Both the position numbers and the translations under genes were made by a program. The notes below the pieces were generated by a model, which saw nothing but the letters and a program-made list of their open reading frames with translations, searched no databases and was not told the origin of the DNA. A DNA stretch of 64,000 nucleotides. Source: Rhizomicrobium sp. GTDB taxonomy: Bacteria; Pseudomonadota; Alphaproteobacteria; Micropepsales; Micropepsaceae. Of this stretch, positions 1,548 through 24,712 are shown in pieces. The stretch's first letter is position 1, and each line of letters opens with the position of its first letter. The stretch lies in assembly GCA_037200045.1 (NCBI GenBank), contig JBBCHM010000001.1, positions 682,001-746,000 on the forward strand. The letters are read 5' to 3'.

Positions 1548-4160
1548 ATGCAGCCGAGGTCAATGCGTAGCGTATGGGTGCGGAGCACCGCACTGGCGAC
1601 CGTCTTGATGACACTTTCTCCTGCGGCATGGTCGCAGACGCCGGCCTACAGTTTCGACATCCCTGCAGAACCGCTGGCCACCGCATTGCACGACTTTGCC
1701 CGAATTTCGGGCCAGCAGATCATCTTCTCGTCCGATCAGGTTGCGGGCAAATCGGTCGCGGCTCTCAGGGGCGAGTATTCGAGCGAGGACGCCCTCTCAC
1801 GCCTTCTCGCCGGCACTGACCTTGTTGTCGATCGCGCCGCGTCCGGCGGCATCATGGTCCGCCCAAAAAACGCCGAAGCCGCCTCAAATGACAGGGCGGC
1901 AGAAATTCCGGGAGTCGAGACAGTTGTCGTTACGGGCACCAACATTCGGGGCATCGTGAACCCGACGTCGCCGGTGTTCTCGTATAGTCGCGCTGACATC
2001 GACAAGACGGGATACGCGACCACTCAGGAATTTACGCGAAGCCTGCCGCAGAATTTCTCAGGCGGCACCTTTGGCGCCACAGAAGATGGTCCTCTGGGCG
2101 CCGGTGCCCATGGCCAATCCAACGTCGAAGGCGCGAGCACTGTGAATCTTCGCGGTCTTGGCGAGGATTCGACGCTTATCCTGCTCGACGGGCATCGGAT
2201 GGCGCCGTCCGTTCTGGGCTCTACGGTCGATATATCCGTCATTCCGTTGTCCGCCATCGACCGCATCGATGTGGTCGCTGACGGCGCGTCTTCGATTTAT
2301 GGATCGGACGCCGTCGCGGGTGTCGTAAATTTCGTCCTGCGCAAGGACTTCGACGGCGCCGAGTCGGAAGTGCGCTACGGTTCGGTCACGTCCGATTCCT
2401 TCGACCAGGTCACTGTCGATCAAATCGTCGGCAAGAGCTGGGAAACCGGCAACATCCTGGCAAACGTTCAGTACGACTACCAAAGCAGTCTGCCGACGAC
2501 GGACCGATCGTTCACCTCCGGCGCCGGACAGCCGACGGACCTTCTGCCCGCGTCGAACAAGCTTTCGGTGGTGGCCTCGGGACATCAGGAATTGTTGCCG
2601 GACCTGGACATATCTGGCGATATTCTATTTTCCGACGACAACACAAAACGCCGCGACACCTTCGATCCGGCCGATGCAAGTTCAATAAAAATACCGCACA
2701 CCACGGTCAACATCAGCGCCGGCGTCGGATATGAGCCATTTGGAGACTGGCGCGTCGAGTTGACCGGCCTTTATGCGAAAGAAAATACTGACACAGTCTA
2801 TTTGAGCGTCACGCCGGCAATCTTTGGCTATACGCCCGGCACGGTCGCATATCGCGATGCGGCCCTTCTCGCGTCTGTCGATCTTAAAGCCGATGGGACG
2901 CTGCTCGTTCTCCCCGGCGGTGCCGTTAAGGCGTCAATCGGAGGAAGTTTTCGAAGCGAAGATACAACTGACTTTACGACCTATTCCGGCTCGTCGCGCG
3001 ACAGCGCTCGACATGTCTCGGCAGTGTTCGGCGAGCTCTACATACCCCTGATTGGCGATGACAATCGCTTCGCCTTTGCGCGACATCTGGATATCTCGGC
3101 CGCCATTCGATACGACCACTACTCAGACGTCGGCGGCACGACGAATCCCAAGATTGGCATCCTCTGGTCGCCGATCGACGGTCTCAATGTGCGCGCGACA
3201 CTGGGAACGTCTTTTCGAGCTCCAAACGGCGCCGACCAGCTCAACAGCGCGAGCGGGCTGAGCATTCTCAACTACGCATTTGCTTCGCCGACGGGGCCGG
3301 GCACAGTGCCGGTATTTGCCTTGGTTGGCATTGCGCTGCCGCTATTGCCGGAAAAGTCCCGTAACTGGACGGCGGGGTTCGACTATCAGTCACCGCTGGT
3401 ACCCGGCGCGAAACTGTCGTTCGACTATTACAACGTCGACTTCACGAACAGGATCGTTTCTCCCCTGTTCGACGTCAATGCCTTGCTTCATCCGCAGGTC
3501 TATGGCCCGCTCATCACGCCTCTTGCGAACGATGTGGCTTCGGCTGCGTACCTTGCCAGCGCCATCGCCCATGGGGACACGTTCTATGACTTTCTGGGTA
3601 CTGGGTCCGCCGGCATACGCTATGCTTTCAATACGGCAGAGCAAAACGCGGCAGTCGCCCGTCAGAACGGGTTCGACATTACGGGCGACTACCAGTTCGG
3701 TTGGAGCGAGGATCATTTCGACGCCCGGGCGAACGCCGCAATTATCAACGAAATCGACACGCAGTTCGCGCCGGACTCGGCCGTCACCGATCTCGTAAAC
3801 ACCTACAGCAATCCGCTGCATGTAAAATTGCGTGGCGATGTGACCTGGACTCGCGGCCCGCTCAGCGTCAATGGCGCCATCAATTACAGCAATGCCTATG
3901 TCGATACGACGGCGACGCCGTACGGAACGATCGCGGCGTCTACGACCTTTGACTTGGCCATGCGGTACGCGCCCACGGATTGGAATGGCTCGACGTTGTT
4001 GAGCGGTACGTCGATCGGCGTCGCTGCCGTCAATTTGTTCGACAGCGACCCTCCCTATGTCGTCAGTTCGGGAGGATTTTTTACGGGCATTCACTACGAT
4101 GTCGGCAATGGCGATCCGCGGGGGCGGTTTGTGTCGATTGATATACGCAAGACATGGTAG
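1548..4160 (+). CDS. TonB-dependent transducer receptor with N-terminal STN domain
   Basis: An 870-residue outer-membrane receptor. The ATG at 1548 follows a GGGGGA ribosome site and gives a good signal peptide ending near AWSQ; an in-frame start at 1494 would add an arginine/glycine-rich stretch before it. Order: signal peptide, STN domain (FDIPAEPLATALHDFARISG, the region that talks to FecR), a TonB-box-like ETVVVTGT, plug domain (RGLGEDSTLILLDGHRM, then IYGSDAVAGVVNFV), and a 22-strand type barrel ending in an aromatic residue. The STN domain and the fecIR neighbours make it a transducer rather than a simple uptake receptor. The substrate is unknown; the peptidase gene downstream suggests a peptide or protein-derived ligand. 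Confidence 0.93.
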   Translation: MQPRSMRSVWVRSTALATVLMTLSPAAWSQTPAYSFDIPAEPLATALHDFARISGQQIIFSSDQVAGKSVAALRGEYSSEDALSRLLAGTDLVVDRAASGGIMVRPKNAEAASNDRAAEIPGVETVVVTGTNIRGIVNPTSPVFSYSRADIDKTGYATTQEFTRSLPQNFSGGTFGATEDGPLGAGAHGQSNVEGASTVNLRGLGEDSTLILLDGHRMAPSVLGSTVDISVIPLSAIDRIDVVADGASSIYGSDAVAGVVNFVLRKDFDGAESEVRYGSVTSDSFDQVTVDQIVGKSWETGNILANVQYDYQSSLPTTDRSFTSGAGQPTDLLPASNKLSVVASGHQELLPDLDISGDILFSDDNTKRRDTFDPADASSIKIPHTTVNISAGVGYEPFGDWRVELTGLYAKENTDTVYLSVTPAIFGYTPGTVAYRDAALLASVDLKADGTLLVLPGGAVKASIGGSFRSEDTTDFTTYSGSSRDSARHVSAVFGELYIPLIGDDNRFAFARHLDISAAIRYDHYSDVGGTTNPKIGILWSPIDGLNVRATLGTSFRAPNGADQLNSASGLSILNYAFASPTGPGTVPVFALVGIALPLLPEKSRNWTAGFDYQSPLVPGAKLSFDYYNVDFTNRIVSPLFDVNALLHPQVYGPLITPLANDVASAAYLASAIAHGDTFYDFLGTGSAGIRYAFNTAEQNAAVARQNGFDITGDYQFGWSEDHFDARANAAIINEIDTQFAPDSAVTDLVNTYSNPLHVKLRGDVTWTRGPLSVNGAINYSNAYVDTTATPYGTIAASTTFDLAMRYAPTDWNGSTLLSGTSIGVAAVNLFDSDPPYVVSSGGFFTGIHYDVGNGDPRGRFVSIDIRKTW

Positions 4161-6270
4161 GCGCCGTTCTCGACGCGGCCGGTGCCTTTTCTGCGCGCGG
4201 TGGCACAACGACGTTGTGGGCGCGCCGGGAGGGGCGTGTGCAAGCCCTCGCGTCTGCGATCACCGTGTGCGCGGGCATCATTTTGGCTATTGGGACGGTC
4301 CAGGCCCGGGCGGCCATGCCCGTTACGGTGATGCGCGTGCTGTCCCTCTCAACGGAACGGGCGCGACGGGTTGCGCTGGGAAATAGCGACTTTTCCTGGA
4401 TTGCCGGCGGACACAGGTTGATTTTTTCCACGACCGCAACGAACGGTTCGCACTCGATCTACGTCTATGATGTCGAAGCGAAGCGAACTTTTCGAATCAT
4501 AGGCGGCGAAAAGCCCGAGCCTTCGCCCGATGGACGCAAGCTGGCCTTCATCGCCGCCGACAGCCGTAAAAGTCTCGGCACCAAAGATGTGCTGCAGATC
4601 TGGATTTGCAATTCCGATGGCAGCAATCCTGTACAAATCACAAAGTCTCCCATCGGGTTCGGCTCTTATGTCGTCTCGAGCTTTCACTGGGCGCCAGACT
4701 CGAGGCACCTCCTCTATGGCCGCATCGATTTCACTCCCCCCGCCGCGGTGGCTGGACAGAGTACGGTTGAGGTTTACACGCGCGGCTACAAAGGGCCCCA
4801 GCCGCATTCTTCGCTTCATGTATTGGATCCGGCCAATGGCACCGACCGTGAGGTCATTTCGCGATCGGGCTTTATCGGGACCTATGGCTGGCTCAATGCC
4901 ACAAGCATCTTCTATTCCTTTTCGCAGGTTGTGGCTCCGGGTACCGATGCGAAGGTGATGGCGCGCTCAATCACATCTGGCGATGAACGCGTGCTCATTT
5001 CCGGTTACAATCTCGAGGATGTCTACGGCCCCACCGTCAGCCCCTCGGGAGACCGGATCGCCTTCATTGCCGATCCGGGCGAGGCGGTGCGCTACCCGGT
5101 GCGTCGCGAACTGGCGGTCTATTCAGTAGCTTCAAAAGACGTTGCGATACTTACGCATTACGCCATCGTATCGCCTTGGCTCGTATGGCGCCCGGATGGG
5201 CAAGGTGTTATCCACACGGAAGGGCGCTTCAACTCACGCGAGCTGTTCTCCACGTCTCTCGATGGACAATCTCGTGCGCTGACCAGGGGGCCAGGGCTTA
5301 ACAGCGCGCCAAAATTCTCGAGTGATGGAAAATACCTCGTATGGCAATACACGTCGCTCGATCAGCGGCGGGTGCTGAGAATCGCCCGTTGGGGCGGCGG
5401 CGCCCTGATGGATGTCCGAGATTTGCTCGAATTGGAAAATCCTCTTGAAGGGTTTCGGGTTGGCCCGACCAAAGCCCTTCAGTGGAAAAGCGCGGATGGA
5501 TCGATCGTCGACGGCGTGCTCATACTGCCACCGGATTATGACAGGCGACGTCGCTATCCGCTTATTGTCGATCTGCATGGTGGTCCGGAAGGTGTTAGTG
5601 CTACGCTGGCGCAATCGGGAATGCCAACTGAAGGCTTTTTCCCCTACATCATGGCGAACTTCGGCTATGCGATCCTTGTGCCGGATTATCGCGCGAGCGG
5701 CCTCATGGGGTACGACAAAATACTGTCGGCGCGCGATCACAATCAGCTGTTTGAGCCGGATTTCGAGGACATCGACAAGGGCGCGGATTCGCTCGTTGCA
5801 GGCGGCATCGCGGATCCACGGCGCTTGTTCTTGATCGGTCACAGCTGGGGCGGTGATGAGACCAATTATATCATCACACACAGCCATCGGTACCGCGCCG
5901 CGATCTCCTACGAAGGATCTGATGCGCTCACGAGTTGGGCCTGGATAAATGCTACCGTACACGGCGTGAATACCAGCAGCGAGTGGGACATGCGCGGCTC
6001 TCTCCCTTGGATCACATCGGCATGTACTTGCGAGAGTCCGCAGTGGTAAATGCCGCCGCCATCACCACTCCCACCTTATTCATCGCGTGTGAAAACGGGG
6101 TCAATGATCCGGCGTTGGAGTGGCTTTACGTGGTGTCGCAAAAGCTGAATGTGGATAGCCAATATCTTTTCTATCGCGGCGAACCGCACTCGATTGCCAA
6201 ACCGGAAAACATTGCCGACTTGATGGGCCGTATAATTGGCTGGTTTGGGCAGCACGACAACCGGCATTGA
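4154..6270 (+). pseudogene. S9-family serine peptidase (prolyl oligopeptidase/DPP type), frameshifted near 6000
   Basis: The frame from 4154 gives a signal-like segment, a beta-propeller part and an alpha/beta-hydrolase domain with the nucleophile elbow GHSWGG, but it runs out at 6049 with an unrelated tail after MRGSLPW. The missing C-terminus lies in another frame and reads on from PLDHIGMY to ENGVNDP (likely catalytic Asp) and GEPHSI (catalytic His), ending at 6270. The break falls in a CTCTCT run at about 5998-6005; removing one CT dinucleotide restores the protein. The start may be ATG 4154, which overlaps the receptor stop, or GTG 4238, which has a GGGAGGGG ribosome site and starts directly at the signal peptide. 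It probably digests peptides in the periplasm for the adjacent receptor. The break could be a real slippage mutation or an assembly error. Confidence 0.82.
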
Positions 6271-6994
<724 letters not shown>

Positions 6995-8128
6995 ATGATG
7001 ACGACGACGATCCATTCGGCGGACAGCGACTTGTTCGAGCCGGTGCGGCTTGGCCGTTACCGGCTTTCCAACCGCATCGTCATGGCGCCGCTGACGCGCA
7101 GCCGCGCGACCGCGGACGGCGTGCCTCGGCCGATCATGACGGAGTATTATCAGCAGCGCGCCTCGGCCGGGTTGATCGTCTCGGAAGGAACCAACATCTC
7201 TCCGCAAGGTCGCGGCTATGCCTTCACGCCGGGGATTTACAGCCCGGCACAGATCGAAGCCTGGCAGCCGGTCACCGAGGCCGTTCACGGCCGGGGCGGG
7301 CGCATCTTCGTGCAGCTCTGGCATGTCGGGCGCATCTCGCATCCCTCCCTTCAGCCGGGCGGTGCGCTTCCGGTCGCGCCTTCGGCGATCAGGCCGGCGG
7401 GCCATGCCTTCACCGAGTCCGGCTATCAGCCCTGCGTCACGCCGCGCCCGCTACGGACGGACGAAATGCCCGAAATCGTCGAGCAATATCGCCTGGCGGC
7501 GCGGAACGCGCTGGCGGCCGGCTTCGACGGCGTCGAAATTCATGCGGCGAACGGCTATCTGATCGAGCAGTTCCTGCGCGACAGCACCAACCAGCGGACC
7601 GATGTCTATGGCGGCAGCCGCGAAAACCGCGCGCGGCTGTTGCTCGAAGTGACCGAGGCGGTGGCGTATATCTGCGGCGGCGATCGCGTCGGCATCCGGC
7701 TCTCGCCGGTGACGCCGGCCAACGATATCGGCCCCGACAGTGATCCGCAATCGACCTACGGCTACGCGGTCGACCAGCTCAATGCGTTCGACCTGGCGTA
7801 TCTGCATGTGATCGAGGGCGCCACGCAGGGACCGCGCGAGGTGTCCGGCGGGTTCGATTTCCAGGCGCTGCGGCGGTCGTTCAAAAGTCTTTATGTCGCG
7901 AACAACGGGTACGATCGCGCTCTTGCGCTGGAGGCGCGCCGACACAACGACGCAGACCTGATCGCCTTCGGCAGACCGTTCATTTCCAATCCCGATCTGG
8001 TCGAGCGCCTACGCATCGGTGCGCCCCTGACGTCGCCCAACAGCGCGACGTTCTTCGGCGGCGGCAAGGAAGGCTACACGGACTATCCCGTCCTGACGAA
8101 GGATGAGCGCAAGGCGACGGCGGCATGA
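6995..8128 (+). CDS. Old yellow enzyme family alkene reductase (NemA-like)
   Basis: A roughly 377-residue FMN-dependent ene-reductase. It reduces activated C=C bonds of enones, maleimides or nitro compounds with NAD(P)H. Recognisable family blocks are LFEPVRLGRYRLSNRIVMAPLTRSRA at the N-terminus, the QLWHVGR block, the active-site block GFDGVEIHAANGYLIEQFLRD (with the H-x-x-N pair that binds the substrate carbonyl), YGGSRENRARLLLEV, and FGRPFISNPDLVERL. Two adjacent ATGs at 6995 and 6998 follow a TGAGG ribosome site; either could be used, while a start at 6944 would add an unconserved extension. The stop overlaps the next ATG (ATGA), so it is coupled to the flavin reductase gene. Confidence 0.93.
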   Translation: MMTTTIHSADSDLFEPVRLGRYRLSNRIVMAPLTRSRATADGVPRPIMTEYYQQRASAGLIVSEGTNISPQGRGYAFTPGIYSPAQIEAWQPVTEAVHGRGGRIFVQLWHVGRISHPSLQPGGALPVAPSAIRPAGHAFTESGYQPCVTPRPLRTDEMPEIVEQYRLAARNALAAGFDGVEIHAANGYLIEQFLRDSTNQRTDVYGGSRENRARLLLEVTEAVAYICGGDRVGIRLSPVTPANDIGPDSDPQSTYGYAVDQLNAFDLAYLHVIEGATQGPREVSGGFDFQALRRSFKSLYVANNGYDRALALEARRHNDADLIAFGRPFISNPDLVERLRIGAPLTSPNSATFFGGGKEGYTDYPVLTKDERKATAA

Positions 8129-8655
8129 AGGGGCTTCCTCTCGCCAAGGTCTATCAACTGCTTGAGCCCGGCCCGGTGGTTCTCCTGACGACCGCGGATA
8201 AGGGCCGGCCGAACGTCATGACGATGTCGTGGCACATGATGCTCGATTTCGAGCCGCCGCTGCTTGCCTGCGTGGTCTCGCAAGGCGATTACAGCTTTGC
8301 CGCGCTGCGCCGACACGGCGAATGCGTGATCGCGATTCCCGCCGTGGCGCTCGCGTCCAAGGTGGTGAAGATCGGCAACGCGCATGGCGATGCCATCGAC
8401 AAATTCAAGTCCTTCGGCCTTACGCCGGTTCCCGCGCAAAGCGTGGCCGCGCCGCTGGTCGCGGAATGTTTCGCCAATCTCGAATGCAAGGTCGTCGATA
8501 CGCGCATGGTGAAACGGTACGATCTCTTCGTCCTGGAAGTGGTCAAGGCCTGGATCGAGCCCGCGCAGAAGAACCCCAGGACGATTCATCATCACGGCTA
8601 CGGCACGTTCGTGGTGGATGGCCGAACGCTCAAGCTCAAATCGAAGATGCGGTGA
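8125..8655 (+). CDS. Flavin reductase-like (DIM6/NTAB) protein
   Basis: A 176-residue protein of the FMN-binding split-barrel type. The N-terminal block PVVLLTTADKGRPNVMTMSWHMMLDFEPP is the family flavin-binding signature, followed by SFAALRRHGECVIAIP. Proteins of this fold bind FMN and either reduce flavins with NAD(P)H or act as flavoprotein oxidoreductases. It starts inside the stop codon of the ene-reductase gene (ATGA), so both are probably made from one transcript. A hairpin with a T-rich tail lies after it. The exact substrate is not visible. Confidence 0.9.
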   Translation: MKGLPLAKVYQLLEPGPVVLLTTADKGRPNVMTMSWHMMLDFEPPLLACVVSQGDYSFAALRRHGECVIAIPAVALASKVVKIGNAHGDAIDKFKSFGLTPVPAQSVAAPLVAECFANLECKVVDTRMVKRYDLFVLEVVKAWIEPAQKNPRTIHHHGYGTFVVDGRTLKLKSKMR

Positions 8656-8723
8656 ATATAGCGCCGGTGTGACGAGCCCGCCGCCGATGGAAGATCGGGC
8701 CAAGAACCGCGCCGACCTCGGCG

Positions 8724-8752
8724 GCACCGGCTGCGCGCCGGTGCTATTTCTT
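8724..8752 (+). terminator. Hairpin with T-rich tail between convergent genes
   Basis: Inverted repeat GCACCGGC (8724-8731) and GCCGGTGC (8737-8744) with a five-base loop, followed by TATTTCTT. Read on the plus strand it resembles an intrinsic terminator for the ene-reductase/flavin reductase pair. Its right arm touches the stop codon of the convergent permease-monooxygenase gene. The T tract is interrupted, so confidence is moderate. Confidence 0.4.
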
Positions 8753-11557
8753 GAGCGGCGCGTAGAGCGCGTCGCTTGGGTCGGGCCAGCCGAACTGCTC
8801 GCGGCGCTCCGCCAGGACGCGCCGATAGATCGCGACGTCGACATAGTTCGCATGTCGCGGCGAGTCGACATAGTTCTTCGTGCCGCGCAGATTGGGCCGG
8901 TCCTCGCGCTTCAGGCGCTCCCACTCCGCGGCGCCCTGTCCGCTCTGTTCGATCCACGCATCCATCGCCGCCATCTGGGCCATCTCGTCGAAGCGCTGAT
9001 ATCCGGCGGAGGCAAACTCCACGAATCCCACGATCGCCAGGCCGTGCAGACGGCGGTGGAAGATGTTGAGATACAGCTCCGGGTGACCCTGCTTCCAGCT
9101 GAACAGCTGCTCGTCGAGATAGGGAATCTTGTAGTTGTAGCCGGTCGCGAACAGGACGAGATCGAAGCTCTCCTCGCTGCCATCGGCGAAGATCGCGCCG
9201 GTCTCGGTGAAGGTCTTCACGTCGCGCTTGGCCTTCAGATCGCCATGCGCAAGGTAGTGCAGGATCTGGGTGTTCATGATCGGATGCGATTCCAGCGCCT
9301 TGTGATCGGGCGCCGGCAGGCCATAGCGCGTCAGGTCGCCGACGACCGCATCCAGCATCTTGCTGGGATCGTCCGGGATCACGACGCCCTTGGGCGGATG
9401 GACGCCGCTCAGGAACACGTCGGTCGGTATGCCGAAGATATGCTTGGGCACGAAGCGATAGCCGCGGCGAACGCTGATGAAGGCGGCATCCGCCGTGCGC
9501 GCCGCGTCGCAGGCGATATCGACGCCGGAATTGCCGGCGCCGACGATCAGCACACGCTTGCCGCGCAGGATGTCGGCGCTGCGATAGGACACCGTGTGCA
9601 TGACCTGGCCTTTGAAGCGGTCGAGACCGGGATAGTCGGGCAGGCTCGCATGCCAGGTCACGCCATTGGCGCTGACGATGCCGCGATAGATCCGCGTCTC
9701 GCCGTTCGACAGCGTCACGCGCCAGCCGTCCTTCGCGTCCTCGCCCAACGGTTCGGCATGGCGCACTTCGGTGTTGAACGTGATCGCGCTTCGCAAGCCG
9801 AAGGTTTCGGCGAAATCGCGAATATAGGCGAGAAGCTGACGATAATTCGGATAGTCGGGATAGTCCTGCGGCATCGGTAGGCCGAAGAAGTTCGACGTGT
9901 ATTTCGACGAGATGAAGTGCGCGGACTCGTACATCGACGAGCCCGGATTATCGATATCCCAGATGCCGCCGACATCGCCGTGGCGCTCGAATTGATCGTA
10001 GGGTATTCCGGCGAGCCGGAAGGCGCGCGCCGCAAGCAGGCCGCAAGGCCCCGCGCCGACGATGCAATAGCGGCCGTCATAATGCGTCATGGGCACCGCG
10101 CGTGCGCTCTCTGTGCGCAGATCGGCTTCGGCCATCACGCTGTAATCGGCCGGCCGGTTCGCCCGCATCCAGGCGGCGAAGCCGATGCCGGCGAGGATCA
10201 CGGCGGGATAGATCGCCGGCAGCCACTTGACCCAGGCGAGGTCGGCCGTCGCCAGCAGCGGGAAGTTCACGGAAACCAGGATCGCCGCCGCTACAAGTCC
10301 CGCGGCGCCGATGACCGACGCCACCAGCAAGCCCACATTCCCCAGCATTTTGCGCCGCGCCAGCCACGCGATGATGGCAAGGGCCGCGAATGCCTGCAGC
10401 ACGATGATGCCGAGCGTGCCGGTGCCGATCAGCACGGGGATGCCGGCCTGATAGGGATCGACGCCGCTCGCGGCGAAAGCTGCGACGCAGATGAGCGTGA
10501 GCACGCTGACGGCAAGGCTGGCATTCGACGGCGCATAGCGCGCCGGATGGAAACGGCCCAGAAACTGCGGCAGGAGCTTCTCGCGGCTGAGCGCAAAGAG
10601 GTAACGCGCGGCGGCGTTATGGATCGCGAGGTAGGACGCCAGGATCGAGGTGCAGACGAGAAGCGCCGAGATATCCGACATCGTCTGGCCGCAGAACCGT
10701 GCGAACAGGCTGAACATCAGCATGCCGCCGCCCGCCGCCGCCGCGCTTGCGGCATGCTCGAAGGTCAGCGCGCCCACCGTCACCCAGGCGGTGAAGAGAT
10801 AGAACACGCCGATCAGGATCACCGCGGCATAGGTCGCGGTCGGAATGCTGCGCTTGGGGTCTTTCGCCTCCTCGCCATAGAGCGCGGCGGATTCGAAGCC
10901 GATGAAAGACGTGAAGGCGAACATCAGCGCCACGCCGAAGCCCGGCGAGAACAGCACCGCCGGCGCAAAGGAGTCGGCGGGAAATGCCATCAGGCCTTTC
11001 TGCGTGATCACGGCCGCGTCGAACACCGCCAGCACCAGGATTTCCGCCGTCATCAGCACGCCGAGGATCCGCGACGACAGGTCGATGGAGCGGTAGCCGA
11101 GCACGGCGACGATCGCGATGCCGCCGGCCGCATAGACCAGCCATGAGATCGTCACGCCCAACGGCGCCAGCGCAAGCGCCAGGAAGTATCCCAGGAACGC
11201 CGCCATGCCGATGGTGAAGCTGACATAAGCGATCATGGCGATGAACGCCGCGCCCACGCCAAGTGGCTTGCCCAGCCCCTGCGCGACATAGGTGAAGAAC
11301 GCGCCGGTGCTCACGATGCGCCGGCTGATCGCGGCATAGCCGACGGAGAAGCAGATCAGCGTCAGCGTCGCGAACAGGAAGGCGGCCGGCACGCCGCCGC
11401 CATTGCCCCTGGCGAGCGCGATGGGAAGGTTGCCGATCATCGCCGCCAGCGGCGCGGCCGCGGCGACGACCAGGAAGATGATGCGCGGCGTGGAAAGGAC
11501 GCGGCGGTGCTTGCCGGTCTCGAAACGTCGCGTGATGTCGCGGAGCGAGGCGTCCAT
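8744..11557 (-). CDS. Fusion of APC-type permease and flavin-containing monooxygenase
   Basis: A single 937-residue frame with two complete proteins joined. Residues 1 to about 475 are an amino acid/polyamine/organocation permease with about 12 hydrophobic segments (N-terminal IIFLVVAAAAPLAAMIGNLP, GFESAALYGEEAKDPKRSIP before a membrane helix). From residue 490 there is a full FMO: FAD site GAGPCGLLAARAF, FMO fingerprint FKGQVMHTVSY, NADP site GAGNSGVDIACDAA, and LVLFATGY. The FMO half has its own methionine at 490 (base 10090), but no good ribosome site precedes it, so a fused product is expected. Its ATG lies four bases after the SDR stop, with GGAGGG inside the SDR end. Transporter and oxidase would act on one imported substrate; which one is unknown. 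Confidence 0.88.
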   Translation of the reverse strand: MDASLRDITRRFETGKHRRVLSTPRIIFLVVAAAAPLAAMIGNLPIALARGNGGGVPAAFLFATLTLICFSVGYAAISRRIVSTGAFFTYVAQGLGKPLGVGAAFIAMIAYVSFTIGMAAFLGYFLALALAPLGVTISWLVYAAGGIAIVAVLGYRSIDLSSRILGVLMTAEILVLAVFDAAVITQKGLMAFPADSFAPAVLFSPGFGVALMFAFTSFIGFESAALYGEEAKDPKRSIPTATYAAVILIGVFYLFTAWVTVGALTFEHAASAAAAGGGMLMFSLFARFCGQTMSDISALLVCTSILASYLAIHNAAARYLFALSREKLLPQFLGRFHPARYAPSNASLAVSVLTLICVAAFAASGVDPYQAGIPVLIGTGTLGIIVLQAFAALAIIAWLARRKMLGNVGLLVASVIGAAGLVAAAILVSVNFPLLATADLAWVKWLPAIYPAVILAGIGFAAWMRANRPADYSVMAEADLRTESARAVPMTHYDGRYCIVGAGPCGLLAARAFRLAGIPYDQFERHGDVGGIWDIDNPGSSMYESAHFISSKYTSNFFGLPMPQDYPDYPNYRQLLAYIRDFAETFGLRSAITFNTEVRHAEPLGEDAKDGWRVTLSNGETRIYRGIVSANGVTWHASLPDYPGLDRFKGQVMHTVSYRSADILRGKRVLIVGAGNSGVDIACDAARTADAAFISVRRGYRFVPKHIFGIPTDVFLSGVHPPKGVVIPDDPSKMLDAVVGDLTRYGLPAPDHKALESHPIMNTQILHYLAHGDLKAKRDVKTFTETGAIFADGSEESFDLVLFATGYNYKIPYLDEQLFSWKQGHPELYLNIFHRRLHGLAIVGFVEFASAGYQRFDEMAQMAAMDAWIEQSGQGAAEWERLKREDRPNLRGTKNYVDSPRHANYVDVAIYRRVLAERREQFGWPDPSDALYAPLKK

Positions 11558-11561
11558 CTGG

Positions 11562-12380
11562 TCAGCCCTCCGCCGTCAGGCCGCGGCTTTCCAGGAAGCG
11601 CTTCAGGCCCTTCTCGCCCTGCTTCTGGAAGGTCGGGATCATGCGCGGCAAAAGTCCCGGCGCGATGCAGACGATTTTCGCCGTCACGCTGTCCCAGAAG
11701 GGCAGGTGGGTCTCCAGCCTCGTGCCGTCGAGCGCGCGCAGGCAGGCGGCGGCGACGTCCTCGGCGCTCAGCACGTCCTTGTTGAGGAAATTCAGCACCG
11801 AGCCGCCATGGGTGGCTTCGTAGCGCAGCATCGGCGTGTCGACCGCGCCGGGAAACACGCCCACCACCTTCACGCCGTGCGGCGCAAGTTCGAGGCTTGC
11901 CGCCGTCAGGAACCCGCGCAGCCCGAATTTCGAGGCGCTGTACGCGGCGCTTCCCGGCAGCGCGACGAGACCGGCGGCGGAGACGATCGACAGGATCGCA
12001 CCGGTCTTGCGCTTCACCATGACCTCGGCCGCCGCTTTGGTCAGTTGCATCGGCGCGATCAGGTTGATGGCGATGTGGCGCTCGATCTCGGCGAAGGAAA
12101 GATCGACGATATTGCCGGGGCGGATGATCCCGGCATTGTTGACCAGCAGATCGGGTTCGGGGCGCGCCTGGATAAGCTGGGCGACGGACTCGCGGCCCGC
12201 GCCGGTGGACAGGTCGGCGACCACCGTCTGCGTGCCGTCCGGCAGCGCGGACCGGTTGGTGGCCAGTCGCGCCTCGTCGATGTCCACGAGGGTGAGCGCA
12301 TAGCCGCGCTCCGCCAGCTTGCGCGCCAGCGCCGCTGCGATGGCGCCGCCGCCGCCGGTGATGATCGCCGTTTTGCCCAT
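11562..12380 (-). CDS. SDR-family NAD(P)-dependent oxidoreductase
   Basis: A 272-residue short-chain dehydrogenase. The cofactor motif TGGGGAIAAALA is a variant of TGxxxGxG, followed by NNAG (residues around 85) and the catalytic YSASK with an upstream serine (SIVSAAG). The C-terminal 40 residues extend past the core fold. An ATG at 12380 starts directly before the cofactor strand; a GTG at 12395 adds five residues. It is the first gene of a two-gene transcript with the permease-monooxygenase and is divergent from a TetR gene; the palindrome between them probably controls both. Confidence 0.9.
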   Translation of the reverse strand: MGKTAIITGGGGAIAAALARKLAERGYALTLVDIDEARLATNRSALPDGTQTVVADLSTGAGRESVAQLIQARPEPDLLVNNAGIIRPGNIVDLSFAEIERHIAINLIAPMQLTKAAAEVMVKRKTGAILSIVSAAGLVALPGSAAYSASKFGLRGFLTAASLELAPHGVKVVGVFPGAVDTPMLRYEATHGGSVLNFLNKDVLSAEDVAAACLRALDGTRLETHLPFWDSVTAKIVCIAPGLLPRMIPTFQKQGEKGLKRFLESRGLTAEG

Positions 12381-12412
12381 GACCCGTCCGCACACAGATG
12401 TTGAATTTCAAT

Positions 12413-12436: not shown

Positions 12437-13087
12437 ATGACAAGCTGGAACGCTCGGAAAAAGAAGCAGCCGCGCAAGGTGGCCCGGACGAAGGCGCAGC
12501 AGGTACGCTCGAAAGAGACCGTGCAGCGCATTCTCGATTCCGCGATGGCGCTGACGGCGGAGAAGGGCGAGGCGGTCACGATGTCGGAGATCGCCAAGCG
12601 ATCGAGCGTCGTGATCGGCGCGGTCTATCGCTATTTCGCCGACAAACGCGCGATCAACCGCGCCATCCTGTTGCAGCATTTCGCGCAGGTGGAGGCGATG
12701 CTGCGCGAGCACATCTGGGCGGCCGCCAGCGCGGACGAGTTCATCGCCACGGTGCAGTCGGTCTATGAGCTCTATTTCGAGATGCACCAGCGCGATCCGC
12801 TCTATCGCAACATCTGGTCGGTCGTGCAGACCGACGCGGCGCTTCAGGCGCTGGACGTCGCCGATACGCTGAAGAACGCACGGTTATTTTACGATGTGGC
12901 ACGGCCCTTCTTCCCGAAGGCCGACCGCGAGGAGTTGATGGCGGTCTGCGTGTTCCTGCTCCACTTCGCGGCATCGAGCAGCCGGCTCGCGCTCGCGCTG
13001 CCCCGGCCGATGGGCCGGCGGATGCGGCCGATCTATCAGGAGGTCATCGCCAATGCGCTGCAGAATCTCGTGCTTGCCGGGCGTTAA
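12437..13087 (+). CDS. TetR-family transcriptional regulator
   Basis: A 216-residue protein with a basic N-terminal tail and the TetR DNA-binding domain at about residues 25-75 (ETVQRILDSAMALTAEKG, then MSEIAKRSSVVIGAVYRYFADKRAI). The rest is an all-helical ligand domain. No strong ribosome site precedes the ATG because the operator-like palindrome occupies that place. It is divergent from the SDR/permease-monooxygenase genes, which it probably represses. Its stop overlaps the stop of the convergent MFS gene by four bases. Confidence 0.9.
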   Translation: MTSWNARKKKQPRKVARTKAQQVRSKETVQRILDSAMALTAEKGEAVTMSEIAKRSSVVIGAVYRYFADKRAINRAILLQHFAQVEAMLREHIWAAASADEFIATVQSVYELYFEMHQRDPLYRNIWSVVQTDAALQALDVADTLKNARLFYDVARPFFPKADREELMAVCVFLLHFAASSSRLALALPRPMGRRMRPIYQEVIANALQNLVLAGR

Positions 13088-14322
13088 CTCCCGGGCCGGG
13101 CACGGTAATGCGCGATCATCGACACCGCGAACATCGCCGACCCGAGCGTCGTGAGCGCGGCGGCGATCCAGAACGCGCCGCGCACATCGCCCGGCGTGAC
13201 GCCGAACGAGGAGAGGAACGGCCCGGCGCTCAGGCCGAAGATGGTGATCGCGGTTCCCAGCATCACGGCGCGTCGCGACGGCTCCATGTCGATTAGCAGG
13301 CGCACCTGGAACGGATTGAGCGCCAGCCAGAACAGGCCGAACAGCGCCGTTGCCACGACATAGGCCGCGGTCGATTGCGCCGTCGCGATCAGCGCGATCA
13401 CGATCGCCTGGCACAACGGCCCCAGCACGGTGACGGCGCGAAACGGCAGCCGCCAGGCGAAGCCCGCGACGGCGAAGGCGCCGGCCACCTGGGCCAGAAG
13501 GCTGAAGGCGAGCGCGGACCCCACGACGTCCGGCGCGATGTGATATTGCGCGGCGATGCGCTCAGCATAGTCCCACGCCCCGCCGATCGCGGCGTTCTGC
13601 AAGGTGATGCCCGCCAGGATCCCGATGACGGGCAGCGTCCACACCTTGCCGCCGGCCGCGGCTTCGGCGCTGGGCGGCGGCCGTCGCTCGGTGAGGACGA
13701 ACGCCGCCGCGGCGGAAATCGCGGCTATCGCGGCCAGGATGAGAAAGCCGCCATCGGCGCCGATCCGCGGCAGCAGGATCGCGGGAAAGACATAGGCCAG
13801 CACGGCCTGCGGGATCGTCTGCAGCGCCAGGAACAGTCCGTTCAGGCGATCGGGACTCTTCGAATGGGTGATGACCACGATGGCGGCGCCCAGGATGAAG
13901 CCTTCCAGGAAACCGGCGGCGCCGCGCGTGGCGAACAGCATGAGCGTGGTGTGCGAGACATAGATCGCCGCATCCAGCAGCGCCAGCAACACCGCGCCGG
14001 CGGCGACCTTGGCGGCGATCCTGCCCCGGCTCAGGACCTGTGCGCCCACCGCCGATCCGATCGCCAGCGCCAGCACCTCCACCGTCGCGAGCCGGCCGAG
14101 CGAGGCTTCATCGACGCGGCCCTCCTGCGCCAGCGCGCCCAGCAGCACCGGCTGCACGCCCAATATCATCAGCGAGGCGGTGCCGATCACCATGCTGCTG
14201 GCGATGACGTGCCAGGAATCTCGCGGGCCGCTGGGCACGAGGCCCGATTCCAGTTCCAGCCCGGCGACGCCGCTCGGCGCCGGGCCGAGCGGGGGGACAG
14301 TTTCGGATGAAACGGATTGCAT
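13084..14322 (-). CDS. MFS-type transporter
   Basis: A 412-residue protein with a roughly 35-residue hydrophilic N-terminal tail and about 12 hydrophobic helices. The layout of two six-helix halves with a longer cytoplasmic segment near residues 215-230 (TERRPPPSAEAAAGG) fits the major facilitator superfamily. No substrate-specific motif is visible. It faces away from the second TetR gene; the short gap between them (14323-14470) holds a candidate operator. Confidence 0.82.
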   Translation of the reverse strand: MQSVSSETVPPLGPAPSGVAGLELESGLVPSGPRDSWHVIASSMVIGTASLMILGVQPVLLGALAQEGRVDEASLGRLATVEVLALAIGSAVGAQVLSRGRIAAKVAAGAVLLALLDAAIYVSHTTLMLFATRGAAGFLEGFILGAAIVVITHSKSPDRLNGLFLALQTIPQAVLAYVFPAILLPRIGADGGFLILAAIAAISAAAAFVLTERRPPPSAEAAAGGKVWTLPVIGILAGITLQNAAIGGAWDYAERIAAQYHIAPDVVGSALAFSLLAQVAGAFAVAGFAWRLPFRAVTVLGPLCQAIVIALIATAQSTAAYVVATALFGLFWLALNPFQVRLLIDMEPSRRAVMLGTAITIFGLSAGPFLSSFGVTPGDVRGAFWIAAALTTLGSAMFAVSMIAHYRARPGS

Positions 14323-14470: not shown

Positions 14471-15205
14471 GTGAACACGGATGGTCGAGCTGTCGATATG
14501 CAGAAGCGGGTGACGCCACGCGCCGGCCGGCTCGCGAAGAAAAGCCGCCCGGCGCCGCCGAAGGTTCGGCTCGAGATGAACGGCCCGCCGCTGCAGGATC
14601 GCTCCCGCTCCACCTACGATGCGATCCTCAGGTCGGCCGGCGAGATTCTGGTCGAAGTGGGCATCGAGCGGCTGTCGACGAACCTCGTGTGCAAGCGCGC
14701 GGGGCTCACGCCGCCGGCACTCTATCGCTACTTCCCGAACAAATATTCGCTTCTGAAGGAGCTCGGCGCGCGCCTCATGACGGTGCAGGACAAGGCGGTC
14801 TTCGCCTGGCAGGACCGTTACGGCAGCGCCTGGCCGGCAAGCGTTGGCGGCATGGCGAAGGCGCGGCAGGCCATCCTGCGCGATGTCGATCGCATCACGA
14901 AGACATTCCCGGGCGGCGGCTGGATCATGCGCGCCCTGCGGGCCGTGCCGACGCTCAGCGCGGTGCGCATTGCGTCGCGCGAACAGGTGGCGGAGCGCGA
15001 CTTTGCCGCGCTGGTCGAGCGCTATCCGGACGCCGACCGGAAGACGCTGCGCGTCGCGGCCACCCTGTGCGTCGAGGTCATGCACGCCACGCTGGAACTG
15101 GTCGTCGACCAGCCTGAACTCGACGGCGATCTCTTCCTGCGGGAGATTTCGTACATGACCGCGCTCTACGTGGCGTCGTTCGCGAAGCCGCGAGTCAAAA
15201 AATAA
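14471..15205 (+). CDS. TetR-family transcriptional regulator
   Basis: A 244-residue regulator. The HTH domain spans about residues 45-95 (STYDAILRSAGEILVEVGIERLS, VCKRAGLTPPALYRYFPNKYSLLKEL). The N-terminal 40 residues are basic and unconserved; ATG 14498 is an alternative start. It lies 56 bases before a TonB-dependent receptor gene and divergent from an MFS transporter, so it may control one or both. The gap before the receptor contains two short palindromes (AACTATAGTT at 15212-15221 and ATAGCTAT at 15222-15229). Confidence 0.9.
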   Translation: MNTDGRAVDMQKRVTPRAGRLAKKSRPAPPKVRLEMNGPPLQDRSRSTYDAILRSAGEILVEVGIERLSTNLVCKRAGLTPPALYRYFPNKYSLLKELGARLMTVQDKAVFAWQDRYGSAWPASVGGMAKARQAILRDVDRITKTFPGGGWIMRALRAVPTLSAVRIASREQVAERDFAALVERYPDADRKTLRVAATLCVEVMHATLELVVDQPELDGDLFLREISYMTALYVASFAKPRVKK

Positions 15206-17591: not shown

Positions 17592-18806
17592 ATGGCCATG
17601 ACGAACTCGCAAGACCGTGCGCTGCGCGACCGCGCCTTCGCGGTCATCCCCAACGGCATGTACGGGCACGAATCCGTGCGGATGCAACCGGAGAACTATC
17701 CGCAGTTCTTCGCGCGCGCCGAAGGCGCACGGCTCTGGGATGTCGACGGCAACGGCTACCTCGATTTCATGTGCGGATTCGGCCCCAATCTTCTCGGCTA
17801 TGGCCATCCGGGCGTCGCCGAGGCGGCGGCGCGGCAACAAAAGCTGGGCGACGCCATGACAGGACCCGCTCCGGCGATGGTGGAATTCGCCGAGAAGCTC
17901 GTCGCGATGGTCGGCCATGCCGATTGGGCGATGTTCTGCAAGAACGGAACCGACGCCACGACGATGGCGATGATGGCGGCGCGGGCGCACACCAAGAAGC
18001 GCAAGATACTGGTTGCCAAGGGCGCCTATCATGGTGCCGCGCCTTGGTGCACGCCCAATCCGACGGGGACGCTGCCCGAAGACCGGGCGCACCTCATCAC
18101 TTATATATACAACGATATCGAAAGCTTCGACGCCGCGGCAAAGGAAGCCGGAAACGATCTCGCCGGCGTCTTCGCCGCCCCGTTCAAGCACGACGCCTTT
18201 GTCGATCAGCAAATGCCCGACCCGGCCTATGCGAAGCGCGTCCGGCAGCTTTGCGACGAGCGGGAGGCGGTTCTGATCGTCGACGACGTGCGGGCCGGCT
18301 TCCGCCTGGCGCGCGATTGCAGCTGGTCGCTGGTCGGCGTGACGCCGGATCTCTCCTGCTGGGGAAAGGCCATCGCGAACGGCTATCCGATTTCCGCGCT
18401 GCTCGGCTCCGACAAGCTTCGCGCGGCCGCCGGCTCTCTCTACGTGACGGGGTCGTTCTGGTTCGCCGCCGTCGCGATGGCCGCGGGCGTCGCGGCCATG
18501 GAGATCATAAAGACCACCGATTATCTGGAGCATACGACGCGGGTCGGCCAGCGGTTGCGCAGCGGGCTCGCCGCCATCGCGCGGGACCGCGGCTTCGGCA
18601 TCCGCCAGACCGGGCCGGCCCAGATGCCGCTGATCCTGTTCGACGGCGATCCGGAGCTCAAGAAGGGCTATGCCTGGGCATCGGAAATGGTCCGTCGCGG
18701 CATCTACGTTCATGCCTGGCACAACATGTTCATGTGCGCGGCAATGACCGACGCCGACATCGACGAGGCGCTGAACAAGGCCGACGAAGCCTTCGCCGCG
18801 CTCTAG
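17592..18806 (+). CDS. Class III PLP-dependent aminotransferase (glutamate-1-semialdehyde aminomutase-like)
   Basis: A 404-residue protein. Conserved blocks are the N-terminal WDVDGNGYLDFMCGFGPNLLGY, the PLP phosphate-binding region CKNGTDATTMA, the AYHGA block, the cofactor aspartate in VLIVDDVRAGFR, and the Schiff-base lysine in SCWGKAIANGYP. It falls in the GSA-aminomutase/omega-aminotransferase group. No heme genes are nearby, so a catabolic transamination or isomerisation of the compound taken up by the adjacent receptor is more likely. ATG 17592 is chosen because upstream in-frame starts lie inside the receptor gene. Confidence 0.88.
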   Translation: MAMTNSQDRALRDRAFAVIPNGMYGHESVRMQPENYPQFFARAEGARLWDVDGNGYLDFMCGFGPNLLGYGHPGVAEAAARQQKLGDAMTGPAPAMVEFAEKLVAMVGHADWAMFCKNGTDATTMAMMAARAHTKKRKILVAKGAYHGAAPWCTPNPTGTLPEDRAHLITYIYNDIESFDAAAKEAGNDLAGVFAAPFKHDAFVDQQMPDPAYAKRVRQLCDEREAVLIVDDVRAGFRLARDCSWSLVGVTPDLSCWGKAIANGYPISALLGSDKLRAAAGSLYVTGSFWFAAVAMAAGVAAMEIIKTTDYLEHTTRVGQRLRSGLAAIARDRGFGIRQTGPAQMPLILFDGDPELKKGYAWASEMVRRGIYVHAWHNMFMCAAMTDADIDEALNKADEAFAAL

Positions 18807-18856: not shown

Positions 18857-20476
18857 TCAGTTGCCGCGCTCGGGCGTCGCGGTCGGGTCGATCCATAGCC
18901 AGCGTGAGCGGTTCATGTCGCGGATGTTGGGAATCCACCCCTTCACATAGGGCTCCACGATGTCCTGCGTGACGTTGAAGCGGCCCGGAATGACGCCGAC
19001 ATCGTCCAGCACGATCTGTTCCGCGTCGCGCAAAAGCTCGCCGCGCGCCTTGAGGTCGAGCGTCTGGTAGGACTTCGCCAGCAGTGCGTCGAATTTCGGA
19101 TTGTTGTACTTGCCGTAATTGTTGCCGCTCTCCGATTGCAGCAGATCGAGGAACGTGCCGGCGTCGTCGAAATCGCCGATCCAGGCGCTGGTGGCGATTT
19201 CGAACTGGCCTTCCTGCAATTTCTTGTAGAAGAACTGCCCATCCGAGGTGACGATATCCACGTCGATATAGACCGCGCGCAGCATCGATTGCAGCACCGC
19301 GGCGCTGCGCTTCGAGTCGGGCGTGGTCGAGGTGTCGAAGGTGGTGCGGAAGTGGTTGTTCGGGCCATAACCCATCTCGACCATCAGCGCACGGGCCTTG
19401 GCCAGGCGCTGCTCATGCGTCAGGGACTGGAAGTCCAGATGGGCGCCGCCCGGATAGTTCGCCACGCCCGGCGGCACGAAGTGATAGGCCGGAACGTCGC
19501 CCAGCCGCAGGATCTTGTTGCACAGGATCTCGCGGTCGAGGGCGAGCGCTATGGCCTCGCGCAGGCGGCGGTCCTGGAACGGCTTGCGCTGGAAATTGAC
19601 CACCAGATAGCTCACCGCCAGCGTCGGGTTGAGCTGGAGGGCGCGGGGAATGTTGTGGCGCATCCAGGCGATCTCGGCCGCGGGGATGAGGGTCTGCGTG
19701 TCCTGCTCGCCGGCGCGGATCGATTTGAGCGCCGCCAGCGTGTCCGAGGTCGGCTTGTAGATGACGGTCTGCAGCCGCACATTGGCCGCGTCATAGAAGC
19801 GCGGATTCTTGACGAGCGTCAGATGGTCGTTCGGCACCCATTCCTTCGGCAGGAACGGGCCGTTTCCGACATAGTTTTCCGGCTTGGCCCAGGCGTCGCC
19901 CTTCGCCATCACGACGTGGCGCGGCACGGGAAACACCGCCTGGTGCAGAAGATATTCGAGCATGTAGGGCGCCGGATGTTCGAGCTGCACGACCAGCGTC
20001 TTGTCGTCCTTGGCGGCCACGCCGAGCGCGTCGGTCGGCAGCTTACCCTCGCTGATCTTCTGGGCGTTCTTGATCAGCCAGAGATAATAGGCATAGGGCG
20101 CGCCGCGCGCCGGCTCCAGGATGCGGCGCCAGGCGAACACGAAATCCTGCGCCGTCACCGGCACGCCGTCGGACCAGACATGGTCGCGCAGGTGGAAGGT
20201 CCAGGTCTTGCCGTCCGGCGAGGTCTCCCAGCTCGTCGCGGCGCCCGGGATCGGCTTGCCGTTGGCCGCCTCGGTCGTCAGCCCGACCAGCAGGTCGCCG
20301 ACGACGAAGGCCTCCCAATTGCCGTCGATATAGTGCGGGTCGAGGCTCTTGATCTCGCTGCCATTGCCGCGGACGAGATAGTCGGGCGAATGGATCGTCC
20401 GGCTCGCCGTGCCGAACTTGGTGCAGGCGCTGAGCAGGATCAGGACGGCGATAGCGGCGAACCGCGCTGCGGACAT
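18857..20476 (-). CDS. Peptide ABC transporter substrate-binding lipoprotein (OppA/DppA family)
   Basis: A 539-residue SBP of the family 5 type. The ATG at 20476 begins a lipoprotein signal peptide with lipobox LLSAC; longer in-frame starts reach into the neighbouring gene. Family blocks: GNGSEIKSLDPHYIDG, TSWETSPDGKTWTFHLRDHVWSDG, DFVFAWRRILEP, NGPFLPKEWVPNDHLTLVKNPRFYD. It is the second of two similar binding proteins in tandem, 62 bases after the first, and would deliver peptides to the DppBCDF-like membrane complex encoded nearby. Confidence 0.92.
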   Translation of the reverse strand: MSAARFAAIAVLILLSACTKFGTASRTIHSPDYLVRGNGSEIKSLDPHYIDGNWEAFVVGDLLVGLTTEAANGKPIPGAATSWETSPDGKTWTFHLRDHVWSDGVPVTAQDFVFAWRRILEPARGAPYAYYLWLIKNAQKISEGKLPTDALGVAAKDDKTLVVQLEHPAPYMLEYLLHQAVFPVPRHVVMAKGDAWAKPENYVGNGPFLPKEWVPNDHLTLVKNPRFYDAANVRLQTVIYKPTSDTLAALKSIRAGEQDTQTLIPAAEIAWMRHNIPRALQLNPTLAVSYLVVNFQRKPFQDRRLREAIALALDREILCNKILRLGDVPAYHFVPPGVANYPGGAHLDFQSLTHEQRLAKARALMVEMGYGPNNHFRTTFDTSTTPDSKRSAAVLQSMLRAVYIDVDIVTSDGQFFYKKLQEGQFEIATSAWIGDFDDAGTFLDLLQSESGNNYGKYNNPKFDALLAKSYQTLDLKARGELLRDAEQIVLDDVGVIPGRFNVTQDIVEPYVKGWIPNIRDMNRSRWLWIDPTATPERGN

Positions 20477-20538
20477 GTACAAAAGCCCCTTGTCGACACA
20501 ATCTATATAGCGGATTCGCCGGCGACCCGTGCTGCGGC

Positions 20539-22131
20539 TCAATGGGCCGCCCGGTCGAGCCACAGCCAGCGGGTCCGGTGCAGATCGCGCGGATTGTCCA
20601 CCCAACCCTTTACATAAGGCTGAACGAGGTCCTGGCTGGTGCGGAAGCGCATCGGGATCCAGGGATAGTCCCTGAGCGCCACGCGTTCGGCCGCGGCCAG
20701 AAGCCGGCCGCGCCTGGCCGCGTCCGGTTCCTGCTGGGCCGTGTTCAGCATGGCGTCGAAAGCCGGGTTCCGGTAGCGGCCGTAATTGTTGCCGGCGTCG
20801 GACCGCAAGAGGTCGAGGAAATTGCTGGCGTCGTTGAAGTCGGCGTACCAGGACGCGGCGCCCAGGTCGAAATTGCCCTGGTTCATGTTGCGGCCGTGCA
20901 CGGCGGCGTCGATGGCGCTGATGTCGATATAGACCCAGATCTCGCGCAGCATCGCCTGAAGCACGGCGGCGACGCGCTTGTTGTTCGGCTCGTCATAGGT
21001 CTCGAAATTGAGCCGCAACGGGTTGTCGGGCCCGTAGCCGGCGCGGTTCATCAGCCATTGGGCCTTTTTCAGGCGCTCGGCGGCGGAGAGGGGCCGGAAG
21101 TCGTAGGACTGCTCGCCCGGATAGTTCGCGGTGCCCGGCGGCACGATGCCATAGGCGGGCGGCTCGCCCAGCCGCAGGACCTTCTGCGTCACTATCTCGC
21201 GGTTGAAGGCGAGGTTGAGCGCGCGGCGCACGCGCAAATCGTTCAGCGGCGGGTGCTGCAGATTGATGGAGATGTAGGACAGGGCAAGCGCCGGCTTGGT
21301 GTGGAGCAGGGCCGGCATGGTCCGGCGAAGCCATTCGATCTGCGTCAGCGGGATCGGCGTCTGGATGTCGAGTTCGCCGGCGCGGATCTGGCGCAGCGCC
21401 GCGTTGCTGTCGGCCGTGGGATAGAAATTCACGACGTCGATCCGCACGCGCTGGGCGTCGTAGAAGCGCGGATTCTTGACCAGCGTCAGGTGGTCGTTCG
21501 GAACCCATTCGCGAGGCACGAACGGCCCGTTGCCGACGAAATTGCCGGGCCTGGACCAGCCATTGCCCTGGGCGAGCACGACATGGCGCGGCAAGGGATA
21601 GGTGGTGTCGTGGGTCAGAAGCTGCGGCAGATAGGCGGCCGGGTGCTCCAGCGTGACCACCAGGGTCCGGTCGTCGACCGCCTGAACGCCCAAGGCCGTG
21701 GGCGGCAGCGTCGCCGCGCTGATCGCATGGGCGTTCTTCACGACCCACAGATTATAGGCATAGGAGGCCCCGGTCCGGGGATCGAGCAGGCGCCGCCAGG
21801 CGAAGACGAAATCCGCCGCCGTCACCGGCCGCCCGTCCGACCAGACATGCTCGCGCAGGTGGAAGGTCCAGGTCTTGCCGTCGGGCGACACGGTCCAGTC
21901 CGTCGCCGCGCCGGGGATCGACACGCCCGCCGCGTCCGACGTCGTCAGGCCGATCAGGAGGTCGCCCTCGATGGTGGATTCGGCGACGCCGTCGATGAAA
22001 TGGGGATCGAGGCTCCGGATTTCCGATCCGTTGCCGCGATTGAGCACCGTCAGGGCCGAGGCCGGCGCCGCGCCGGTGCCTGCGGCAAGCCCCGCAAGAA
22101 GGACGGCACGCGCCCATCGGTTCATTGCCAT
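20539..22131 (-). CDS. Peptide ABC transporter substrate-binding protein (OppA/DppA family)
   Basis: About 530 residues. ATG 22131 (or 22125) gives a Sec signal peptide (RAVLLAGLAAGTGAAPASA) without a lipobox, unlike its tandem paralogue. The mature part keeps the same blocks: RGNGSEIRSLDPHFIDG, VSPDGKTWTFHLREHVWSDGRP, VGNGPFVPREWVPNDHLTLVK, and AGNNYGRYRNPAFDAML near the C-terminus. The two genes probably arose by duplication and may give the transporter two specificities. The frame continues upstream across an opposite-strand gene, but that extension is a shadow without signal peptide features. Confidence 0.92.
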   Translation of the reverse strand: MAMNRWARAVLLAGLAAGTGAAPASALTVLNRGNGSEIRSLDPHFIDGVAESTIEGDLLIGLTTSDAAGVSIPGAATDWTVSPDGKTWTFHLREHVWSDGRPVTAADFVFAWRRLLDPRTGASYAYNLWVVKNAHAISAATLPPTALGVQAVDDRTLVVTLEHPAAYLPQLLTHDTTYPLPRHVVLAQGNGWSRPGNFVGNGPFVPREWVPNDHLTLVKNPRFYDAQRVRIDVVNFYPTADSNAALRQIRAGELDIQTPIPLTQIEWLRRTMPALLHTKPALALSYISINLQHPPLNDLRVRRALNLAFNREIVTQKVLRLGEPPAYGIVPPGTANYPGEQSYDFRPLSAAERLKKAQWLMNRAGYGPDNPLRLNFETYDEPNNKRVAAVLQAMLREIWVYIDISAIDAAVHGRNMNQGNFDLGAASWYADFNDASNFLDLLRSDAGNNYGRYRNPAFDAMLNTAQQEPDAARRGRLLAAAERVALRDYPWIPMRFRTSQDLVQPYVKGWVDNPRDLHRTRWLWLDRAAH

Positions 22132-22221
22132 GCCGTTCGAAGCCCTCGCAGACCGCCCGTCGATACCATATTCTTCGCGCTCTCGACCGCCGGCCGGAAG
22201 CCTCAAGACGGATAACCATCG

Positions 22222-22902: not shown

Positions 22903-24711
<1,809 letters not shown>

Positions 24712-24712
24712 G

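Follow-up and report, generated by a model that had tools for sequence, protein, structure and literature searches.

Carrier-enzyme fusions are known as a kind, and both halves of the protein considered here have described relatives. The APC amino-acid carriers ApcT, GkApcT and AdiC share the membrane fold and the AA_permease_2 match of the permease half, whereas this half differs from the solved carriers in its approximately 14% identity, in a first transmembrane helix (TM1) without the Gly-rich motif and in the enzyme on its C-terminus. The class B flavin-containing monooxygenases (FMOs), with DiatB (8z12/8z17) as the nearest solved member, share with the enzyme half the FAD/NADPH Rossmann motifs, FxGxxxH, ATGY and 30% identity; unlike these enzymes, the present protein carries Ile549 in place of an Asn and is joined to a transporter. 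Moreover, plasmid pCRE138 of Rhodococcus erythropolis R138 carries permease, SDR and FMO homologues, and its FMO falls within the clade of the fusions, but there the permease and the FMO are two genes. Separate FMO-SDR modules (L106-L109, with TetR, and Burkholderia ambifaria L123) encode FMOs that are 47-51% identical, have an adjoining SDR gene and show the same Ile in the rows compared, whereas no permease is fused to these FMOs, which are proteins of their own. The fumonisin (fum) cluster of Sphingopyxis MTA144 resembles the present region in its FumI-like aminotransferase; unlike in this region, no fusion is mentioned in the portions of the published accounts consulted.

A permease and a flavin monooxygenase in one chain

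In this study, a stretch of 64,000 nucleotides of Rhizomicrobium DNA (the window) was analysed. An earlier note had described an uninterrupted 937-codon frame at 8744-11557; the frame is present, and its strand, which had been left unstated, is minus. It runs from 11557 to 8744 with 0 internal stops, and the same interval read on the plus strand in frame 1 is interrupted by stops. The features of the locus are as follows:

8744..11557, minus strand: gene of the permease-FMO fusion, with its ATG at 11557 and its stop codon at 8744-8746 (937 codons; full-length homologues)
10145..11557, minus strand: permease half (residues 1-471) of APC/AA_permease_2 type, with about 12 membrane helices (Pfam, hydropathy, fold match to ApcT)
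10076..10144, minus strand: linker, residues 472-494, of near-constant length, Arg481 invariant in 21/21 aligned fusions (alignment)
8747..10075, minus strand: FMO half, residues 495-937, with FAD and NADPH Rossmann motifs, FxGxxxH, ATGY and Ile549 (Pfam, alignment, fold match)
11562..12395, minus strand: SDR oxidoreductase, co-directional with the fusion gene and upstream of it across a 4-bp gap (homologue in 21/30 loci)
12437..13087, plus strand: divergent regulator of the TetR type (in 11/30 fusion loci a homologue lies no more than 2.5 kb away)
13084..14322, minus strand: MFS transporter, with homologues close to the fusion in L050 (50%) and L065 (32%)
14471..15205, plus strand: second TetR regulator, with homologues close to the fusion in L050 and L065
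15262..17580, plus strand: TonB-dependent receptor (homologue near the fusion of G390/G426, L050/G426)
17598..18806, plus strand: FumI-like class III aminotransferase, the homologous part of an ORF that opens at 17439 (match to 6hbs)

In the 937-residue protein, Pfam matches covered residues 26-438 (AA_permease_2, E 4e-27) and 496-850 (FMO-like, E 3e-56). Both domains exceeded the gathering score, which upheld the earlier description of a complete APC-type transporter and a complete FMO; the permease scores were 95.5 against 27 for AA_permease_2 and 51.9 against 24.6 for AA_permease. Among the 21 aligned fusions, FMO-like and AA_permease were each matched in 21 and AA_permease_2 in 20, and AlphaFold on 20 fusions gave a mean pLDDT of 82.3 and a pTM of 0.75. 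The chain is a genuine two-domain protein, composed of a complete APC-type permease and a complete FMO-like domain. Two long plus-strand frames (8618-9880 and 9917-11146) face the gene and probably reflect nothing more than the open antisense frames that GC-rich DNA usually has. Elsewhere in the window, a peptidase-like gene, judged by eye, at 4154-6270 (plus strand) appears to be split near 5935-6049 into two frames that overlap (631 and 111 codons).

The junction (residues 466-494, around position 10090) has a coding-type GC3 of 0.76 and could be aligned in 21/21 fusions aligned, among which the distance from residue 465 to Cys498 varies by a few residues. In the window copy and five close copies, this linker changed most at third positions (0.52 against 0.38), and the nonsynonymous to synonymous codon differences were 244:87 in the linker and 1749:1587 in the FMO. 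Residues 466-494 are thus under less constraint than the domains. The chance of an artefact in which a sequencing error or the loss of a stop merged two genes is practically negligible. An internal ATG at codon 490 could in principle start a separate FMO, but 20 other aligned fusions have no Met at this place, and such an internal start was rejected. Furthermore, the fusion occurs in 30 loci of three phyla, cultured strains included, which ruled out a sequencing error, a frameshift and a lost stop; relatives with two genes and a frameshift at about 10090, as envisaged in the earlier note, were not borne out. The fusion is real because the same joined protein is found in several unrelated bacterial groups.

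Topology of the permease and active site of the flavoenzyme

The APC-type permease domain spans about residues 20-470. Its hydropathy profile consists of 16 overlapping raw windows, best read as 12 helices, and the N-terminus of the fusion is rich in K/R. By the positive-inside rule, 12 hydrophobic helices behind such an N-terminus would place both ends of the domain in the cytoplasm. Structural alignment of model residues 16-481 to ApcT (3gia) gave a Z score of 36.1 and an rmsd of 3.1 over 416 residues, and the termini of ApcT are cytoplasmic. The helix count, the charged N-terminus and this fold match are all consistent with the earlier proposal that the FMO domain faces the cytoplasm, which is the orientation predicted here. 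AdiC was also among the fold matches. Across the aligned fusions, the membrane domain of the permease half is retained in full and many of its residues are invariant, the row of L068 having been cut to start at residue 42, and identity to ordinary separate permeases was 41-46%. The two nearest separate permeases with surroundings examined lie on Streptomyces plasmids in biosynthesis-like clusters.

In known amino-acid carriers, a Gly-rich motif in TM1 binds the carboxylate of the amino acid. TM1 of the present permease half, AAAAPLAAMIGN, lacks this motif, so that even the class of the transported substrate is unsure; to our knowledge, the motif is not required across the whole APC superfamily.

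The enzyme half (model residues 495-915) was aligned to DiatB (8z17) with a Z score of 37.2 and an rmsd of 3.0 over 409 residues. The FAD GxGxxG motif was present in 24/24 fusions and the NADPH GxGxxG in 23/24, L102 having GxGxxA. FxGxxxH was likewise found in 24/24, with the terminal aromatic residue of the fingerprint FxGxxxHxxx(Y/F) in 22/24 (His in L049 and L131), and ATGY in 23/24, with CTGY in L072. The nucleotide sites and the fingerprint were therefore as the earlier note had reported them; the picture of the motifs needs correction at one place, where Ile549 replaces the classical FMO Asn. The position is occupied by Ile in 24/24 fusions and, among the 23 separate relatives compared, by Ile in 19, Asn in 3 and Asp in 1. 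Ile549 aligns with N57 of DiatB, and the residue is Ala in 8z16. The conserved Asn is N61 in the human FMOs. The loss of this catalytic residue from all 24 fusions makes simple N- or S-oxygenation doubtful, and it weakens the earlier suggestion of an amine or sulfide as the direct substrate of oxygenation. The Asn is also missing from Baeyer-Villiger enzymes and from the plant YUCCA enzymes, so carbonyl chemistry is a fair candidate. Judged from the residues of the active site, a Baeyer-Villiger-like attack on a carbonyl, or another non-classical reaction, would be at least as likely as N- or S-oxygenation.

Distribution, neighbours and origin of the fusion

The database search that the earlier note had called for returned 30 fusion loci in Alphaproteobacteria, Actinomycetota and one Acidobacteria MAG, the contigs of MAGs being open to misassignment; a scan of GTDB species genomes seeded by two short peptide patterns, which was not exhaustive, contributed to the count, and the count includes two contigs of one MAG (L066 and L067). 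Repeat fetches were counted once (L050/L022/L119, L047/L128, L073/L129/L142, L048/L130, L049/L132 and L131/L140), and two loci stand outside the 30, namely L070, a separate FMO, and L104, a 59-residue fragment at a contig end of the MAG that also contains L054. One open frame across the permease and FMO domains was unbroken in 24/30 loci; four frames run off the contig (L066, L067, L069 and L071) and two have one in-frame stop (L048 and L102). The stop of L048 lies in the FMO half and that of L102 in the permease half. Full-length homologues in a single frame were found in a Caulobacterales MAG (G390; 69% identical over residues 1-936) and in Agrobacterium sp. T29, where residues 16-937 have a 50% identical counterpart that is encoded on a plasmid and annotated as one protein. 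Further copies occur in Caulobacteraceae, Phenylobacterium aquaticum, several Rhizobium/Rhizobiaceae, Methylobacterium hispanicum, Streptomyces and freshwater actinobacterial MAGs; the copies of T29, P. aquaticum, Rhizobium wuzhouense, M. hispanicum and Streptomyces sp. GESEQ-35 come from records of named strains rather than MAGs. The open frame of the Methylobacterium fusion (L068) continues about 300 codons further upstream (7086-8000, plus strand), to 1229 codons in total. No Pfam domain was found in this extension at E 1e-5, and a third N-terminal domain was rejected; the extension is probably a wrong start.

The distribution of the fusion is patchy. It was found in 1/61 genomes searched, the genome of the window itself, and was absent from the other 60, some of which have a separate FMO homologue (up to 52%); in the scanned loci of this sample, no permease homologue lies beside the separate FMO of L106, L112 or L114. 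Genomes at a greater distance do carry the fusion. It was present in 2/385 genomes of the class sample and 2/398 of the phylum sample (own genome included in each), in 6/299 Caulobacteraceae, one of them with an in-frame stop, and, at a query coverage of 80% or more, in 1/72,556 plasmid records.

In 21/30 loci, the fusion has an SDR homologue at a distance of 2-162 bp, on the same strand in 12 and on the opposite strand in 9. The other nine loci showed none: four run off their contig on the 3' side, L048 has 482 bp there, and L049, L051, L063 and L068 have more flank, the upstream flank of L063 being only 563 bp. An SDR homologue was also found within 100 bp of the separate FMO in 7/18 loci scanned (L106-L109, L123, L134 and L135); the FMO-SDR pair is therefore likely older than the fusion. 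In nine actinobacterial MAG loci (L052-L058, L060 and L061; one Nanopelagicaceae), the SDR gene is on the opposite strand, 2-47 bp downstream of the fusion. A fixed wider operon was rejected, since the SDR was the only gene clearly shared among the actinobacterial loci scanned (10 proteins of L053, L054 and L056; also L058). An aldo/keto reductase occurs near the fusion in L053 and L056. Outer-membrane proteins of uptake type were found near several fusions: a TonB receptor in the window and G390, the Phenol_MetA_deg type in L021, L064 and L065, and the FadL/TodX type in L068. Within the window, old-yellow-enzyme and flavin-reductase-like genes at 6944-8655 (plus strand, 4-bp overlap) converge towards the fusion, and an old-yellow-enzyme type gene also occurs near the P. 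aquaticum fusion (L073). A serine recombinase with Resolvase and Recombinase domains at 30418-32082 (minus strand) is a possible sign of a mobile element.

The best solved relative of the aminotransferase is FumI, the aminopentol aminotransferase (6hbs; E 1e-151 over 398 residues). In the window, L050 and L065, the aminotransferase gene is no more than about 6 kb away from the fusion, and in T29 it occurs alone, 7 kb off; together with the MFS transporter and the second TetR it recurs near the fusions of L050 and L065, and in Novosphingobium (L124) it occurs with MFS, TetR and TonB homologues but without the fusion. Eight of 13 fusion genomes carry the aminotransferase, and it was not found at E 1e-80 in the other five. 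The class sample has it in 7/289 genomes, the own genome included. In Caulobacteraceae it is present in 6/6 fusion-bearing genomes against 122/299 overall (p 0.004, with kinship ignored), and in 5/6 of those genomes either a different contig or a distance of 0.7 Mb or more separates it from the fusion. The family background of 122/299 therefore explains much of the co-occurrence. A role as core partner was weakened by this abundance, by the distance from the fusion and by the five genomes without it, and the aminotransferase is not part of the core module. Moreover, being common in Caulobacteraceae and rare in the class sample, it probably has no fumonisin-specific role there, and no FumD-type carboxylesterase domain was found among the window proteins scanned by Pfam. 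Two family-5 solute-binding proteins in tandem and an oligopeptide-type ABC operon (18857-26595, minus strand) adjoin the gene in the window, and FumI-like genes elsewhere also adjoin ABC transporter genes.

In the FMO tree, a clade supported at 100/100 united the halves of 24 fusions with a single separate protein, from the R138 plasmid, and forcing the fusion halves into a single clade was not rejected (p-AU 0.262). In the permease tree, the halves of 23 fusions formed one clade (98/96) against 8 separate permeases; the separate sets of both trees were small and picked from hits in hand, and R138 was a long branch in both. On pCRE138, separate genes in a stretch of 7 kb encode the APC permease (41%), the SDR (30% to the T29 SDR) and the FMO (54%), with the permease and FMO genes about 4 kb apart. 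This split version may represent a fission or an early branch. On the simplest reading, there was probably a single fusion event, followed by spread between phyla and perhaps by one split.

Proposed coupling of import to oxidation and the competing readings

Our tentative reading, which we hold to be quite possible, is that of an APC (LeuT-fold) importer with a cytoplasmic C-terminal class B FMO, in which import would be coupled to NADPH/O2 oxidation within one chain. The permease half would import an organic amine or a similar small molecule, and the tethered FMO at the cytoplasmic exit would oxygenate this substrate or an early product of it by way of NADPH, O2 and a C4a-peroxyflavin, so that the substrate would be trapped inside the cell. 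The adjoining SDR may perform a neighbouring alcohol/ketone step, and the divergent TetR may control the set. Putative channelling from the permease to the FMO is plausible; the fusion by itself does not prove it. An amine or amino-alcohol as the substrate is a guess. In the same manner, the FumI-like aminotransferase, the MFS transporter and the TonB receptor nearby suggest, as a guess, the catabolism of an amino-alcohol or a long-chain amine. The full scheme, in which a handover from APC permease to FMO and redox trapping would make uptake one-way, as a redox counterpart of group translocation, by a module that moved with its SDR between phyla, is rather unlikely.

It is also conceivable, if doubtful, that the permease serves mainly as a membrane anchor or a device of stoichiometry, with the FMO acting on a cytosolic substrate and without channelling. 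The split genes of R138 and the family FMOs of L106-L109, which have SDR and TetR homologues and no permease match beside them, show that the FMO can work without a fused permease; however, a whole membrane domain with many invariant residues would be superfluous for a mere anchor. We think it quite improbable that what the FMO produces leaves the cell through the permease half, by efflux or exchange. Antiporters such as AdiC, a fold match here, do occur among the APC proteins, and the biosynthesis-like surroundings of the two nearest separate permeases on Streptomyces plasmids would suit export, whereas the outer-membrane proteins near several Proteobacterial fusions are of uptake type. More improbable still is a sensor or receptor that does not transport, to which the unusual TM1 might point; the conserved full set of helices and the identity to ordinary separate permeases argue against it.

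The searched portions of the open-access literature, including PMC2933618, PMC7711896, PMC5408185 and PMC10746191, contain no description of a permease-FMO fusion. With its conservation across phyla, this agrees with the earlier remark that the architecture is not known as a standard one, and a fusion of an amino-acid-type carrier with a flavin monooxygenase, kept across three phyla, is apparently an undescribed kind. In conclusion, the fusion offers a case in which the coupling of import to oxidation can be tested directly. It also links a permease family without known substrates to a reaction and marks an FMO subfamily with an altered active site.
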